Source of the DNA: Mycobacterium intracellulare ATCC 13950
Lineage (GTDB): Bacteria > Actinomycetota > Actinomycetes > Mycobacteriales > Mycobacteriaceae
NCBI RefSeq assembly: GCF_000277125.1
Contig: NC_016946.1
Location: 310,001-374,000, forward strand
Direction of reading: 5' to 3'
DNA: 64,000 nt
A model generated the notes under the pieces. The model made no database searches. It was not told where the DNA came from and saw nothing but the letters and a program-made list of their open reading frames with translations. The position numbers were made by a program, and so were the translations under genes. Position 1 is the first letter of the stretch. Each line of letters opens with the position of its first letter. Positions 22,982 to 28,287 of this stretch are shown piece by piece.

Positions 22982-23203
22982 GTACGTGAGTACAATGCGG
23001 AATGCCATGGGATTCAGTGAAATAGCGTCGATTTACGTCAACTGATTGAAGTCCATCGCGGCGGGCCAATTTTTAGACTGGAATGGCGCGTTTCCGCCGC
23101 ACCGATGCCGGTCGCATGGTGCGAACGAGCAACACCGCGAAGGTGTTTCGTGCGGCAGAGGCGGAGACGGCATCAGGCCCGAAGAAAAGTAAGCTCCGTT
23201 GTT

Positions 23204-25237
23204 ATGCCGGTGGCTTCTCGGGCGTGGACTGCGGCCTGCGCGCTGATGCTGTGGGCCGCCGCCTGCGTCACCGCGCCCGCAGCGGCCGAGCCGCCGGCCG
23301 CCGGTCTCGGCGCGAAGACGGTCGGCTGGGACACCTACCGCCGGTTGGATCGGCTGCCCTATCTGGACGCCGAATCGCAGACCTTGCAGGTGTCGAGTTT
23401 CGATCGCAGCGGCGGCGATTTCGACATTTCGACCGGTAACCGCAACGGCACCGGCGGGTGTTTGGCGCCGGGCGGCGCGGGCTGCGTCATCGCGGAGGAT
23501 CACGGTGCCGGGGAAGTTGATTCGATCTGGTTTACCCGTGACGGGGGCAATGTGCGTGCCATCGGGCACATCCGCATCGAGCTGGATGGGCAGACCGTCG
23601 TGGACACACCGCTGCAAGCGCTGGTCGACGGCGAACTGGGCGCCCCGTTCGCGTGGCCGCTGGTGGCCAACGCCGCCCAGTCGCCGGGCGGGGTCTATAT
23701 CAAGGTGCCGATGCCCTATCGGCGGTCAATGCGGATCAGCGTCGCGTCCCATCTGGAGTACTACCACGTCGACTATCGACAGTTCCCGAATGCCGATGGG
23801 ATAACTACCTTTTCGCCCGCCGATCCCGCGCTCGATGTGCTGGACACCCTGCGCGCCGCGGGCACCGCCGACCCCAAACCGGCGACAGGCACTGCAACAC
23901 AGAGCAATCGGGTCATCGATCTCCCCGCCGGGACCGAACAAACCGTCGCCGAGACGAGCGGTCCGGGCAGCATCTCGGCGCTGCGGCTGCGGCTGCCCGC
24001 CGCGGCGGATCAACTCCTGACCGGATTGCGCCTGCGGATCGAATTCGACGGACGGACCTTGGTCGACGCGCCCCTGGGGGAGTTCTTCGGCGCGGGACTC
24101 GGCGCCAACCCCGTGCGATCGCTGATGTTCGCCGCCGATCCACAGCCCGACGGGTCGCTGGTCTTGTGGGATTGGTGGCCAATGCCTTTCGCGAACTCGA
24201 CCCGCGTCACCCTCGTCAACACCACCGCCGCCACGGTGCCGGGGATCGCCGGCGACGTCACGACGACGCCCGACGCGCAATGGGCGGCGGCGCTGGCCAG
24301 CGGCCGCGCTGGCTACTTCACCGCCCGCGCCCATGCCGGCCCGACCATCCAGGGCCAGGACTGGGTGTTCGCCGACGAACAGGGCCACGGCAAATTCGTC
24401 GGCGTCAGCCACACCATACGGGGCCAGCGGACCAAAACGGCGTTCAGCGACGGCGCCCCCTACTTTCTCGAAGGCGCCGAGCGGGTCTACACCGACGGCG
24501 CCGCATCCCCGCAGTGGTACGGCACGGGCACCGAGGACCTCTACGAGGGTGGCTGGTACTTCAAAGACGGCACCCACTTCAGCGACCCGCTCAACGGCCA
24601 GCCCGACCAGCGCACGGCGACCGGCGGGTGCGCGGACTACTGCGTCGCCGTCTACCGGATCATGCTCGCCGACGCCATCGGGTATGGCTCCGCGCTCCGC
24701 TTCGGCATCGAGCACGGCAAGCGCAACATGGTCCAACCCGACTACAGCTCAACGGCATTCCTCTACACACAGCCGGACGCGGTCCTCACCGGCAGCGACG
24801 ACGTCCGCCCCGCCGACCCCGTCGATCGCGTCCTGCACGGCTACACCGATGCCGACGCCACCGATCAGCTGCTGGTCAGCGAATACGAGGGCACCGAGGA
24901 CACCCTGCCCCTCGTCGGCTCGGTCCGCAGCACCCAGGGCGCGATCACGTTCCATGTCCAGGTTGATCCGGGCAACCACGGTGTCCTGCTGCGCCGCACG
25001 TCGGACCAGGAGACCGGCTTCCAATCGGCGGACGTCGCGGTGGACGGCGTGCCCGCGGGCACGTGGCTTCAGCCGCGCAGCAACACCTTTCACCGCTGGC
25101 TGGACGACACCTACCTGGTGCCGCAGTCGGTCACCGCGGGCAAAGCGCAGCTGACCATCACCCTCACGCCCGCGGCGGATTCGCCGCCCTGGACGGCCAG
25201 CCGCTACCACGTCGACGCCCTCACGGGCCCGGCCTAG
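23204..25237 (+). CDS. Secreted DUF2961/GH172-family glycoside hydrolase candidate
   Basis: A 677-residue exported protein with a signal peptide (SRAWTAACALMLWAAACVT, cleavage near AAAEPP) and a DUF2961 region. Family blocks include YRRLDRLPYLDAESQ, VDSIWFTRDGG and VPMPYRRSMRISV, and the likely active-site stretch with ERVYTDGAASPQWYG, GTGTEDLYEGGWYF and EHGKRNMVQPDYSS. DUF2961 proteins were reclassified as GH172, which includes exo-D-arabinofuranosidases and difructose anhydride enzymes; catalytic residues there are two Glu, and the Glu of ERVYTDG and GTGTED are good candidates. In a mycobacterium the natural target would be arabinan of arabinogalactan or lipoarabinomannan. The activity is inferred. 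It overlaps the convergent hydrolase gene by four bases. Confidence 0.75.
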   Translation: MPVASRAWTAACALMLWAAACVTAPAAAEPPAAGLGAKTVGWDTYRRLDRLPYLDAESQTLQVSSFDRSGGDFDISTGNRNGTGGCLAPGGAGCVIAEDHGAGEVDSIWFTRDGGNVRAIGHIRIELDGQTVVDTPLQALVDGELGAPFAWPLVANAAQSPGGVYIKVPMPYRRSMRISVASHLEYYHVDYRQFPNADGITTFSPADPALDVLDTLRAAGTADPKPATGTATQSNRVIDLPAGTEQTVAETSGPGSISALRLRLPAAADQLLTGLRLRIEFDGRTLVDAPLGEFFGAGLGANPVRSLMFAADPQPDGSLVLWDWWPMPFANSTRVTLVNTTAATVPGIAGDVTTTPDAQWAAALASGRAGYFTARAHAGPTIQGQDWVFADEQGHGKFVGVSHTIRGQRTKTAFSDGAPYFLEGAERVYTDGAASPQWYGTGTEDLYEGGWYFKDGTHFSDPLNGQPDQRTATGGCADYCVAVYRIMLADAIGYGSALRFGIEHGKRNMVQPDYSSTAFLYTQPDAVLTGSDDVRPADPVDRVLHGYTDADATDQLLVSEYEGTEDTLPLVGSVRSTQGAITFHVQVDPGNHGVLLRRTSDQETGFQSADVAVDGVPAGTWLQPRSNTFHRWLDDTYLVPQSVTAGKAQLTITLTPAADSPPWTASRYHVDALTGPA

Positions 25238-25851
25238 AGCGCGGCGATCGCGGCGACGGCCTCGTCGGCGGTTACGATGGCCGAGGCGTAGTTGGGCAGA
25301 TTGACCTCGAGGGCGGCGCGCATCTCGGTGTCCGAATAGTCGGCCGTGGCGTCGCGGACCACGGTGACGTCGTAGCCGAGTTCGGCGGCGAACCGCACCG
25401 TCGCCTCCACGCAGGTGTGCGCGATCAAGCCCATGACGATGACCTGCTCGATGCCGTGGCGCTTGAGTTGCAGATCCAAGTCGGTGTTGGCGAAACCGCT
25501 GGAACACCAGTGCTCGTGAGCGACGACGTCACCGGGTTGCGGTTCGAACCCGGGACGGATCTCGCCGCCCCAGGTGCCGTATTCGAACGTCTTGCGCGAC
25601 CAGGCGGCCCGCTGCACCGGCGCGATGTGCTTCCACGTTTCGTAGTCGCCCGGCCGGTAACGGCGATGCAGGGCATAATAGACGCGGAGGTTCGCGCCGC
25701 GCGCCGCGTCGAGCACCTGCTGCATGTGGGTGACGCAGCCATTGCCTTCGATGACGCCTTTCAGCCGGTCCCACACCTTCCCGCCCGGGGAAATGAAGTC
25801 GTTGTAGGGGTCGATCACCAGGAGCCCGGTCGCCGCCTTGTCGTATGCCAC
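25234..25851 (-). CDS. Isochorismatase-family cysteine hydrolase
   Basis: A 205-residue hydrolase. The catalytic triad is visible as Asp in LLVIDPYNDF, Lys in AWSRKTFEYG and Cys in GLIAHTCVEATVR, in the order and spacing of isochorismatase/nicotinamidase-like enzymes. Members hydrolyse vinyl ethers, amides or ureas; the substrate is not evident. GTG 25851 was chosen as start because the family fold begins at TGLLVIDP; GTG 25872 is an alternative with AAGG upstream. It is divergent from the P450 gene across a 26-bp palindrome, so the two are probably co-regulated by the TetR at 27202-27786. Confidence 0.82.
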   Translation of the reverse strand: MAYDKAATGLLVIDPYNDFISPGGKVWDRLKGVIEGNGCVTHMQQVLDAARGANLRVYYALHRRYRPGDYETWKHIAPVQRAAWSRKTFEYGTWGGEIRPGFEPQPGDVVAHEHWCSSGFANTDLDLQLKRHGIEQVIVMGLIAHTCVEATVRFAAELGYDVTVVRDATADYSDTEMRAALEVNLPNYASAIVTADEAVAAIAAL

Positions 25852-25923
25852 CGGATCATCATCGCGCACGGCTTGGCGACCTTGACGGATTCGCGGAGAT
25901 GCTGCTAGACATGGCCTGCGCCA

Positions 25924-25949
25924 CGATTTTGGGCGATCGCCCAAAATCG
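25924..25949. promoter_or_regulatory. TetR operator candidate 1 (perfect 26-bp palindrome)
   Basis: The left half is CGATTTTGGGCGA (25924-25936) and the right half is its exact reverse complement (25937-25949). It lies between the divergent hydrolase and P450 genes, and its core TTTTGGGC-N4-GCCCAAAA recurs at 27818-27839 in front of the tetR gene. Confidence 0.8.
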
Positions 25950-25992
25950 ACGGGCGCAGGGATGCCGGCGGCTGCCCGAAGTGAGGAAATCG

Positions 25993-27195
25993 ATGACCGT
26001 CACCAATGACACCGACGTCTACTACGACCCCTACGACGTGGGCATCAACGCCGACCCGTATCCGACCTATGCGCGGCTGCGCGATGAAGCCCCGATCTAC
26101 TACAACGAAAAGTACGACTTCTGGGCGCTGTCACGGCATTCCGACGTCGAGCGCGGATTGGCCAACTGGGAAACCTTCTCCAACAAGCGAAGCGACATCC
26201 TCGAGCTGGTCCAGTCGAAGTTCGAGATGCCCGGCGGCGTGATGATGTTCCAGGACCCCCCCGAACACACGAGGCTGCGCGGCCTGATGTCCCGCGTCTT
26301 CACGCCGCGCCGGATGGCCGCCCTCGAGGACCAGATCCGGCAGTACTGCGTTCGGTGCCTGGACCCACTCGTCGGGTCCGGGGGATTCGACATCATCGCC
26401 GAGCTGGCATCGATGATGCCGATGCGGGTGATCGGGATGCTGCTGGGAATCCCGGAATCCGAGCAGGTCTCGGTGCGCGACGCCAACGACGCCAACCTGC
26501 GCACCAAGCCCGGCGCCCCCCTGAAGGTCGCCAACGCCGACTCCATCGCCGACGGCCGGATCTACGCCGACTACGTCGAATGGCGTTCGAAGAATCCGTC
26601 CGACGACCTGATGACGACGCTGCTCAACGTCGAGTTCGACGACGACCAGGGCGTGCACCGCAAGCTGACCCGTAAAGAGGTGCTGCATTACACCCAGGTT
26701 GTCGCCGGGGCGGGTAACGAGACGACCGGCCGGCTGATCGGCTGGCTGGCCAAGGTGCTCGCGGAGCACCCGGATCAGCGCCGCGAGGTGTACCGGGACC
26801 GGTCCCTGTTGACCCGCACCGTCGACGAGACGCTGCGCTTCGAACCCACCGGCCCCCACGTCGCCCGTTGGATGGCACGGGATTTCGAGTGCTACGGCAC
26901 GACGGTGCCGGCCGGCAGCGCCATGCTGCTGCTCTTCGGCGCCGCCAACCGCGACCCCCGCCGCTACACCGATCCGGACACCTACAACATCCGACGCGAC
27001 AACATCTCGCACATCACGTTCGGCAAGGGCGTGCACTACTGCCTGGGCGCCAACCTGGCCCGCCTGGAAGGCCGCGTCGCGCTCGACGAGATCCTCAACC
27101 GTTGGCCGGAATGGGACATCGACTACGACACCGCACAATTGGCGTCGACGTCCACGGTGCGCGGCTGGGAGCGGCTGCGGGTCGTGCTGCCTTAA
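25993..27195 (+). CDS. Cytochrome P450
   Basis: A 400-residue soluble P450. The haem loop FGKGVHYCLG is at residues 343-352 (Cys350), the I-helix motif is AGAGNETTG with Asn where His or Asp is common, and the K-helix ExxR is in DETLRFEPTG. MMFQDPPEHTRLRGLMSRVF is the C-helix region. ATG 25993 follows GAGGA by five bases. It lies in the TetR module with a hydrolase, a TetR regulator and a PPOX-fold protein, suggesting one oxidative breakdown or detoxification pathway. Redox partners are not encoded here, and the subfamily was not assigned. Confidence 0.9.
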   Translation: MTVTNDTDVYYDPYDVGINADPYPTYARLRDEAPIYYNEKYDFWALSRHSDVERGLANWETFSNKRSDILELVQSKFEMPGGVMMFQDPPEHTRLRGLMSRVFTPRRMAALEDQIRQYCVRCLDPLVGSGGFDIIAELASMMPMRVIGMLLGIPESEQVSVRDANDANLRTKPGAPLKVANADSIADGRIYADYVEWRSKNPSDDLMTTLLNVEFDDDQGVHRKLTRKEVLHYTQVVAGAGNETTGRLIGWLAKVLAEHPDQRREVYRDRSLLTRTVDETLRFEPTGPHVARWMARDFECYGTTVPAGSAMLLLFGAANRDPRRYTDPDTYNIRRDNISHITFGKGVHYCLGANLARLEGRVALDEILNRWPEWDIDYDTAQLASTSTVRGWERLRVVLP

Positions 27196-27201
27196 CGGGC
27201 G

Positions 27202-27786
27202 CTAAGAGGGCAACTCGAAACGGTCGATGAGCCGGTTGACGAGGGCGACGGCTTCGTCATGGCCCGCCGTGGTGCCGAGCGCCTGTTCCAGGATCAGCAT
27301 GCGGCCGATCGCCGCGATGATGACCGCGATCCCCGCGGGCGGAAATTCGCTCCGGTCCAATCCGTGTTCGCGGACGATGAAATTCAATGCGGTGGTTTGC
27401 GTTTCGCGCCATCGCTCCGACCACGCCGCGATCTCTGCCCCGATCTCCTTGCGATGGTTGGCCAGCCCCATGAACTCCAACAGCAGCCGGGTGTCCTTCG
27501 GCTCGATGAGGGTTTGCCAGAAGGCATGCAGTGGGCGGTCGGAGGCCAGCGCCTGCTTTTGGCGCTCCAGATAGGCGGCGGCCCCGCGCCGGAAGACGTC
27601 GAGGTACAGCTCGTCCATGGTGGGGAAGTAATAGTGGACCAGCGCTGGTTTGACACCGGCCTCGTTCGCCACCCGCCGCGAGGTGGCCGCGGCGTAGCCG
27701 TCCTCGACCATGATATGGATCGTCGCGTCGATCAGCATGTCGCGAGTGGTGGAGTCGCGCGCCTTCGGCCGTCGGGGGGCGGTCAT
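27202..27786 (-). CDS. TetR-family regulator of the P450 module
   Basis: A 194-residue regulator. The N-terminal helix-turn-helix contains DMLIDATIHIMVEDGYAAAT, then RRVANEAGVKPALVHYYF at about residues 33-50. The C-terminal part is a TetR ligand-binding bundle of unknown specificity. ATG 27786 was chosen because the next upstream start (27828) would lie inside the palindrome. It is convergent with the P450 gene (7 bp apart) and divergent from the PPOX gene. The matching palindromes in its own promoter and in the P450 promoter suggest autoregulation and control of all four genes, most likely repression relieved by a ligand. Confidence 0.88.
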   Translation of the reverse strand: MTAPRRPKARDSTTRDMLIDATIHIMVEDGYAAATSRRVANEAGVKPALVHYYFPTMDELYLDVFRRGAAAYLERQKQALASDRPLHAFWQTLIEPKDTRLLLEFMGLANHRKEIGAEIAAWSERWRETQTTALNFIVREHGLDRSEFPPAGIAVIIAAIGRMLILEQALGTTAGHDEAVALVNRLIDRFELPS

Positions 27787-27817
27787 GGTGTACGTCTTTC
27801 CCGCAGGGATGCGTAGC

Positions 27818-27839
27818 CTTTTGGGCAATCGCCCAAAAG
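27818..27839. promoter_or_regulatory. TetR operator candidate 2
   Basis: CTTTTGGGC (27818-27826), four bases AATC, then GCCCAAAAG (27831-27839): perfect 9-bp arms. It sits between the divergent tetR and PPOX genes and shares its core with operator 1 at 25924-25949. Confidence 0.8.
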
Positions 27840-27900
27840 CTTAGCCCAGGGTCGTGCCGACCATGATTAGGAACTGGCGCGACGGGGCAATGGAGGTGTC

Positions 27901-28287
27901 ATGGCCCCCAGTTTCAGCGACGTCATCCGATCCAAGTACCTGCTGTTGACCACGTTCACCAAGGACGGCCGGCCCAAGCCGACCCCGGTCTGGGGGGCGC
28001 CCGACGGCGACGGCAAGCTGTTGGTGATCACCGACGACGGTTCGTGGAAAACCAAGCGGATCAACAACACGCCCAGGGTGACGATCGCCAAGAGCGCGGC
28101 GCTGGGCAAGCCCAAGAGCGACGAGGTCGAGGCCGTCGCCCGGGTACTGCCGAAGTCCGAGACGCGGCGCGTGTACAACGCCGTCCTCAAGCGGTACTGG
28201 TACCACGCGTGGTGGTTCTACGCGCACACGATCGTCCGCGGCGGCATCGACAAGGTGCACGTCGGCCTGGAGATCACACCCGCCTGA
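27901..28287 (+). CDS. PPOX-class (split-barrel) F420/flavin-dependent oxidoreductase
   Basis: A 128-residue protein of the pyridoxamine-phosphate-oxidase-like fold. It contains SKYLLLTTFTKDGRPKPTPV (about residues 12-31), GKLLVITDDGSWKTKRINN and PRVTIAKSAALGKPK, typical of probable F420-dependent enzymes abundant in mycobacteria. They reduce or isomerise diverse substrates, including xenobiotics and quinones. ATG 27901 follows GGAGG by four bases. It is divergent from tetR, with a shared palindrome, so it belongs to the same regulon as the P450 and the isochorismatase-like hydrolase. The cofactor choice cannot be proven from sequence. Confidence 0.82.
   Translation: MAPSFSDVIRSKYLLLTTFTKDGRPKPTPVWGAPDGDGKLLVITDDGSWKTKRINNTPRVTIAKSAALGKPKSDEVEAVARVLPKSETRRVYNAVLKRYWYHAWWFYAHTIVRGGIDKVHVGLEITPA

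Follow-up and report, generated by a model that had tools for sequence, protein, structure and literature searches.

A probable TetR regulon of a cytochrome P450 and a PPOX-class gene with two matching palindromes in Mycobacterium intracellulare, read as the eroded form of a wider regulon

The camphor 6-hydroxylation route of Rhodococcus consists of a cytochrome P450, alcohol oxidation and retro-Claisen cleavage by 6-oxocamphor hydrolase. Among the TetR regulons of mycobacteria, that of the Rv0767c type is presumably that of the CYP123/CYP51 region. Both are compared here with a block of four genes (positions 25234 to 28287) in a stretch of 64,000 nucleotides, the window, from Mycobacterium intracellulare ATCC 13950 (NC_016946.1, 310,001 to 374,000), in which genes for a TetR-family regulator, a P450, an isochorismatase-like protein and a PPOX-class protein surround two palindromes, operator 1 and operator 2. 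Motif X has been placed in phytosterol-induced operons of the mycobacterial TetR regulon of the Rv0767c type (PMC6593523). There, a TetR is proposed to act through a palindrome on P450s, short-chain and aldehyde dehydrogenases and itself, which is like the window; the sequence of motif X stands in a figure only. Unlike in that system, the regulator presumed to correspond (L272:4044-4688) did not align with the window TetR and had another recognition helix. The only Rv0768-type aldehyde dehydrogenase to exceed the cut-off lay in L272, where nothing matched the window TetR meaningfully; membership of the Rv0767c regulon was therefore rejected. Eleven novel palindromes of divergent mycobacterial TetRs, with Rv-numbered regulators, have also been reported (PMC4482099); as in the window, that source predicts a palindrome between the TetR and a divergent gene, and its motif logos lie outside the text, so that identity with the window operators could not be checked. 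Literature searches with the operator letters, with mycobacteria and camphor, and with mycofactocin and a P450 cluster found no description of the regulon reported here.

Operator 1 (25924 to 25949) was a perfect 26-bp palindrome, CGATTTTGGGCGATCGCCCAAAATCG, with the core TTGGGCGATCGCCCAA, referred to below as class A, and operator 2 (27818 to 27839) was a 22-bp palindrome, CTTTTGGGCAATCGCCCAAAAG, with one central pair mismatched. Operator 1 lay between the divergent starts of the isochorismatase-like gene (25234 to 25869, minus strand) and the P450 gene (25993 to 27195, plus strand), and operator 2 between those of tetR (27202 to 27786, minus strand) and the PPOX gene (27901 to 28287, plus strand), about 31 bases before the tetR start. 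The initial annotation had described the four genes in this divergent order, a perfect 26-bp palindrome in the first gap, a matching core in the second and no further site in the window; the analysis bore this out, the second site being near-perfect. TTTTGGGC-N4-GCCCAAAA matched the window exactly twice, even with 3 mismatches allowed, and 100 shuffles of the window gave a mean of 0.13 matches (one shuffle reached 2). Genome-wide it had 2 exact matches plus 1 more place with 2 mismatches. The genome search that the annotation had proposed for the core returned exactly 2 copies of the short form TTGGGC-N4-GCCCAA in 5,402,402 bp, both at this block; comparison, too, supports a rare motif tied to this gene set. 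With one mismatch 11 genome places were listed, and with 2 mismatches the short core was rarer than its reversed control (250 vs. 480), so that a match says something only when the palindrome is exact or nearly so. Base composition predicted 0.63 exact short cores per genome and 0.0004 exact 20-mers; the significant statement is therefore that on the 20-mer.

Relatives were sampled by TetR similarity, P450 homology and motif. For the first set 148 genomes of the genus were searched, 25 of which (window genome included) had a match of at least 74% identity; the 24 others were viewed in stretches of 16 to 18 kb, with ten more distant loci. The second comprised the best 80 of 231 loci, with organism names; the organism-named P450 relatives were mycobacteria, and 54 named loci (L128 to L181) had a TetR adjoining the P450. 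For the third, the exact 16-mer TTGGGCGATCGCCCAA was sought in 396 genomes of the genus and 30 returned loci were inspected, and a wider exact search covered 301 genomes sampled across the family. Whether a locus had the main genes was scored by tblastn (the gene caller overlooked the P450 of L054 and the regulator of L272), and an operator was associated with tetR when at most 300 bp before it or 2.5 kb on its other side.

In the P450-homology set, all 59 loci in which a TetR of this type adjoined the P450 (58 of class A, and L166 with the variant helix GVKSALVHYYFP) had the motif (at most 1 mismatch, within 1.4 kb before the P450), vs. 1 of the 21 other loci (none of the 3 that had a class B TetR; 1 of 18, L198, with no TetR found). 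The form TTG[GA]GCGATCGC[CT]CAA preceded the P450, or the short-chain dehydrogenase (SDR) upstream of it, by at most 400 bp in all 54 named loci. All 30 loci returned by the motif encoded the P450, and the TetR was visible within the 3 kb covered in 20. The exact 16-mer was held by 121 of the 396 genomes (reversed control column 0) and by 13 of the 301 in the family sample, of which 12 belonged to the genus. The remaining one (L268) had the match flanked by a TetR of this kind (55%) on one side and a different P450 (27%) on the other, so that the regulator-operator pair may serve another P450 there. Of 21 divergent gaps between tetR and PPOX, 18 contained the operator with at most 3 mismatches. 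Many TetR genes occur in the genome (at least 18 matches to the window TetR at E 0.001, with 22 of 109 candidates scored), and another regulator might bind the palindromes, the TetR being a bystander. This is very unlikely, given the co-occurrence of motif and TetR type (59 of 59 vs. 1 of 21) and an altered recognition helix accompanying an altered palindrome.

Excluding matches without a full recognition helix, 138 matches to the window TetR (helix GVKPALVHYYFP, residues 44 to 55) gave 119 unique sequences of 47 to 100% identity. Helix type and the type of the nearby palindrome agreed in 117 of these 119, a count that amounts to about four contrasts rather than 119, since the operators of classes B, C and D were derived from the same sequences with which they are compared and the members of a class are kin. 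Class A combined the helix GVKPALVHYYF with the palindrome TTGGGCGATCGCCCAA (87 of 89), class B GVKQALVYYYF with a TTGATCGATCGATCAA-like palindrome (10 of 10), class C GLKPQLVHYYFR with TGCTGAGCACCTGCTTAGCA (13 of 13) and class D GVQRAVVYYYF with a TTAGGCGATCGCCTAA-like palindrome (5 of 5). Two unclassed helices, GVKSALVHYYF and GVKPALVYYYFD, adjoined a class A and a class B palindrome, respectively, and no such palindrome was found near the TetR of L056 and L058, the 2 misses in 119. The class A palindrome was retained while TetR identity dropped to 50%. The window genome also encoded a class B TetR of about 50% identity (G000:C1:690733-691296, in L063, 683000-699000) with its own imperfect GATCGATC-type palindrome, and for this reason the two regulators look insulated from each other. 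A stretch of mycofactocin-type SDR sequence in L063 (689697-690548), with one internal TGA, adjoined that class B palindrome. In M. triplex (L143, near 19089), a second TetR (53%) lay near the palindrome CCTATTAGGCGATCGCCTAATAGG, the fourth operator type.

Besides the shared origin of the class B to D operators and the sequences they are compared with, several results weigh against a two-operator regulon. The operator was absent at 3 mismatches from 3 of the 21 divergent tetR-PPOX gaps, and among 1080 windows of 320 bp placed at random in these loci, 42 reached 3 mismatches, by chance or through a real site. L058 had a TetR (59%) without P450 or operator in 18 kb, and L056 a TetR (74%) without P450, its nearest operator-like sites being about 4.6 kb off. 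Conversely, L198 with the motif and L188 with a 2-mismatch version had no detectable TetR. A strict scan for consensus promoters and terminators found none and did not list the promoter-like element described below. The sequences themselves show the palindromes, their rarity and conservation, the pairing of TetR and operator, the scar of a lost gene described below and purifying selection; TetR binding, repression, induction and chemistry are what we infer from them. All taken together, a real and specific two-operator regulon is very likely.

The following mechanism is proposed. A dimer of the TetR (27202 to 27786) would occupy both palindromes, repressing the P450 at operator 1 and both tetR and the PPOX gene at operator 2, until released by a small hydrophobic substrate. 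A promoter-like TTGACG-N18-TAGACA, identified by eye (25882 to 25911, plus strand), pointed to the P450; all 7 aligned operator regions with an isochorismatase-like gene kept TTGAC, and 6 of them kept TAGACA. Since operator 1 began 12 bases past this element, bound TetR would cover the point at which the P450 transcript begins. Operator 1 would also serve the isochorismatase-like gene, both here and in a few further lineages. In the wider pathway of the relatives, hydroxylation by the P450 would be followed by oxidation of the alcohol by a mycofactocin-dependent SDR and, in some species, by ring or diketone cleavage by a 6-oxocamphor-hydrolase-like enzyme and further oxidoreductases.

The window had the class A TetR and the class A operator with the P450, and the relatives had more. 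An intact SDR gene stood between operator and P450 in 31 of the 54 named loci; the one representative scored belonged to the mycofactocin-coupled family TIGR03971 (394.5 vs. a cut-off of 300). Past tetR, the operator preceded an SDR gene in 15 of 15 divergent gaps. The SDR was lost in 23 of the 54 loci and in the window, where no intact TIGR03971 gene but only a scar preceded the P450 directly (25961 to 25984, plus strand). The scar comprised the last seven codons and the stop (D A G G C P K stop) and corresponded to the 3' end, D A G S C L K stop, that the gene has where relatives keep it intact. L128 and L133 had the same scar, and several other loci had different or longer remnants. L138 and L140 contained decaying SDR copies between operator and P450, intermediate stages of loss. 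A quick tree of the P450, many forks of which were weak, implied at least 15 changes of state in SDR presence while operator and P450 stayed.

In other species the operator headed an operon with a 6-oxocamphor-hydrolase-like enzyme, and in several also a Rieske oxygenase; tetR came last in such operons, and an F420-type LLM gene lay just upstream on the same strand. The closest matches of the crotonase-like enzyme of relatives (one representative, L048) were 6-oxocamphor hydrolase and beta-diketone hydrolase (1o8u and 1szo among the matches; E 3.2e-63 to 2.3e-59, next match 2.7e-20). The regulon of the relatives thus shares with the Rhodococcus camphor route the P450, alcohol oxidation and retro-Claisen cleavage types of enzyme, and differs from it in a dehydrogenase of the mycofactocin type. 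The window genome was searched throughout for homologues of the 6-oxocamphor-hydrolase-like enzyme, the P450 and the mycofactocin-type SDR, and for aldehyde dehydrogenases by the TIGR04284 family; Rieske and LLM enzymes were sought within 18 kb around the block. Again unlike Rhodococcus, it had only distant matches to the 6-oxocamphor-hydrolase-like enzyme, the best at 32%, and of the further members present in relatives (this enzyme, Rieske, F420-type LLM and aldehyde dehydrogenase) none lay within those 18 kb. At four more distant loci (L059, L060, L065 and L067), mmpS- and mmpL-type genes followed the class A tetR in the same direction, which suggests that a transporter is part of the regulon in those species. 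Elsewhere in the window genome (L258, G000:C1:2934618-2936650), a mycofactocin-type SDR and a P450 formed another pair (74% and 54%, respectively, to the family members described above), near a different TetR and without a class A palindrome.

The four-gene block is best read as the lineage-specific remainder of a larger regulon of P450 and mycofactocin-type SDR. The initial annotation had proposed a four-gene regulon; its layout held for the window, and the larger regulon, to which the scar and the additional members in relatives belong, had been missed. The partners in relatives (SDR, 6-oxocamphor-hydrolase-like enzyme, Rieske oxygenase, mmpS and mmpL) point to a hydrophobic, maybe terpenoid-like, inducer. 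That the P450 and PPOX genes form a TetR-controlled set and an eroded form of the wider regulon is, as a whole, stated with good confidence.

The isochorismatase-like gene was the least certain of the four members, which are otherwise right for the layout in the window. Its product scored 122.7 bits against PF00857 (cut-off 27) and kept Asp20 and Cys153, but had Glu119 at the position of Lys133 of RutB, as did all 10 aligned sequences (the window protein and nine orthologues). The catalytic triad of RutB is Asp-Lys-Cys; the triad was thus incomplete at its lysine position, and standard cysteine hydrolase activity is doubtful. The start was placed at GTG 25869 or GTG 25851. TTG 25944, which gives the longest frame, was rejected as a start because it lies within the palindrome and the orthologues begin near 25869.

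This gene might be a chance neighbour with its own promoter, the TetR governing only itself, the P450 and the PPOX gene. The gene was not found in the covered stretch of 44 of the 54 named loci, was 1.4 to 5.4 kb away from operator 1 in 4 of the other 10 (L141 being a fragment match), and in the window the promoter-like element faces the P450. Against this, it was divergent at operator 1, at 57 to 195 bp, in 6 loci and the window, and its ratio of nonsynonymous to synonymous substitution rates (dN/dS) was 0.06 vs. L050, indicating purifying selection; also, less than 4 kb before the P450 was covered in 5 of the 54 loci, so that it may have been missed there. A chance neighbour is accordingly a possibility that we do not favour. 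The annotation had placed P450, cysteine hydrolase and PPOX under one TetR; comparison upheld this for the P450 and PPOX genes, and left the isochorismatase-like protein, which has Glu119 and whose gene adjoined the operator in just 6 of the 54 loci, as a part-time member.

An alternative would be that the four genes constitute a pathway of their own, in which one substrate passes in turn through the P450, the cysteine hydrolase and the F420 reductase. The shared operators and purifying selection on all four genes agree with it. However, among relatives that share both the TetR and the P450, the closest (L034 to L036, L128 and L133) had no isochorismatase-like gene nearby, Glu119 occupies the catalytic lysine position, and the SDR scar marks the block as derived; a separate pathway is thus improbable, and the block continues to be read as an eroded regulon.

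Tentatively, the regulon, which was not found described, may oxidise a cyclic terpenoid-like compound by means of P450, mycofactocin-dependent dehydrogenase and 6-oxocamphor-hydrolase-like cleavage. The TetR subfamily would have changed its operator together with a few residues of the recognition helix, and TetR paralogues would therefore have been kept apart. The pathway would repeatedly have been cut to operator and P450, in the window lineage with the isochorismatase-like and PPOX genes, perhaps for detoxification. The locus provides a concrete candidate operator and regulator for an uncharacterised P450 common to many mycobacteria, which in relatives is tied to mycofactocin-type oxidation and a camphor-like cleavage enzyme. 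Four helix types with four palindromes form a natural set of TetR paralogues for the evolution of operator specificity, and a dehydrogenase gene comes and goes while operator and P450 persist.

All four genes were under purifying selection (dN/dS 0.02 to 0.13). The P450 (PF00067, 84.5 bits vs. a cut-off of 22.8; dN/dS 0.02 vs. G046) had an invariant haem-binding Cys350 among 10 homologues; comparison with the PDB placed it in no characterised family (best 207 bits), and no CYP family name was assignable. The TetR (N-terminal helix-turn-helix PF00440, 43.8 bits vs. a cut-off of 24; dN/dS 0.13 vs. G046) had the all-helical TetR fold, and a structure search with its model returned many TetR proteins at similar Z, with no hint of the ligand. 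The PPOX protein had no solved relative by sequence at E 0.001; it matched PF01243 and exceeded the cut-off of the PPOX-class F420-dependent oxidoreductase family TIGR03666 (146.3 vs. 84.9 bits; dN/dS 0.07 vs. G046), in agreement with the annotation, which had considered it possibly F420-dependent. A DUF2961 gene (PF11175, window 23105-25237) adjoined the block here and in many relatives.

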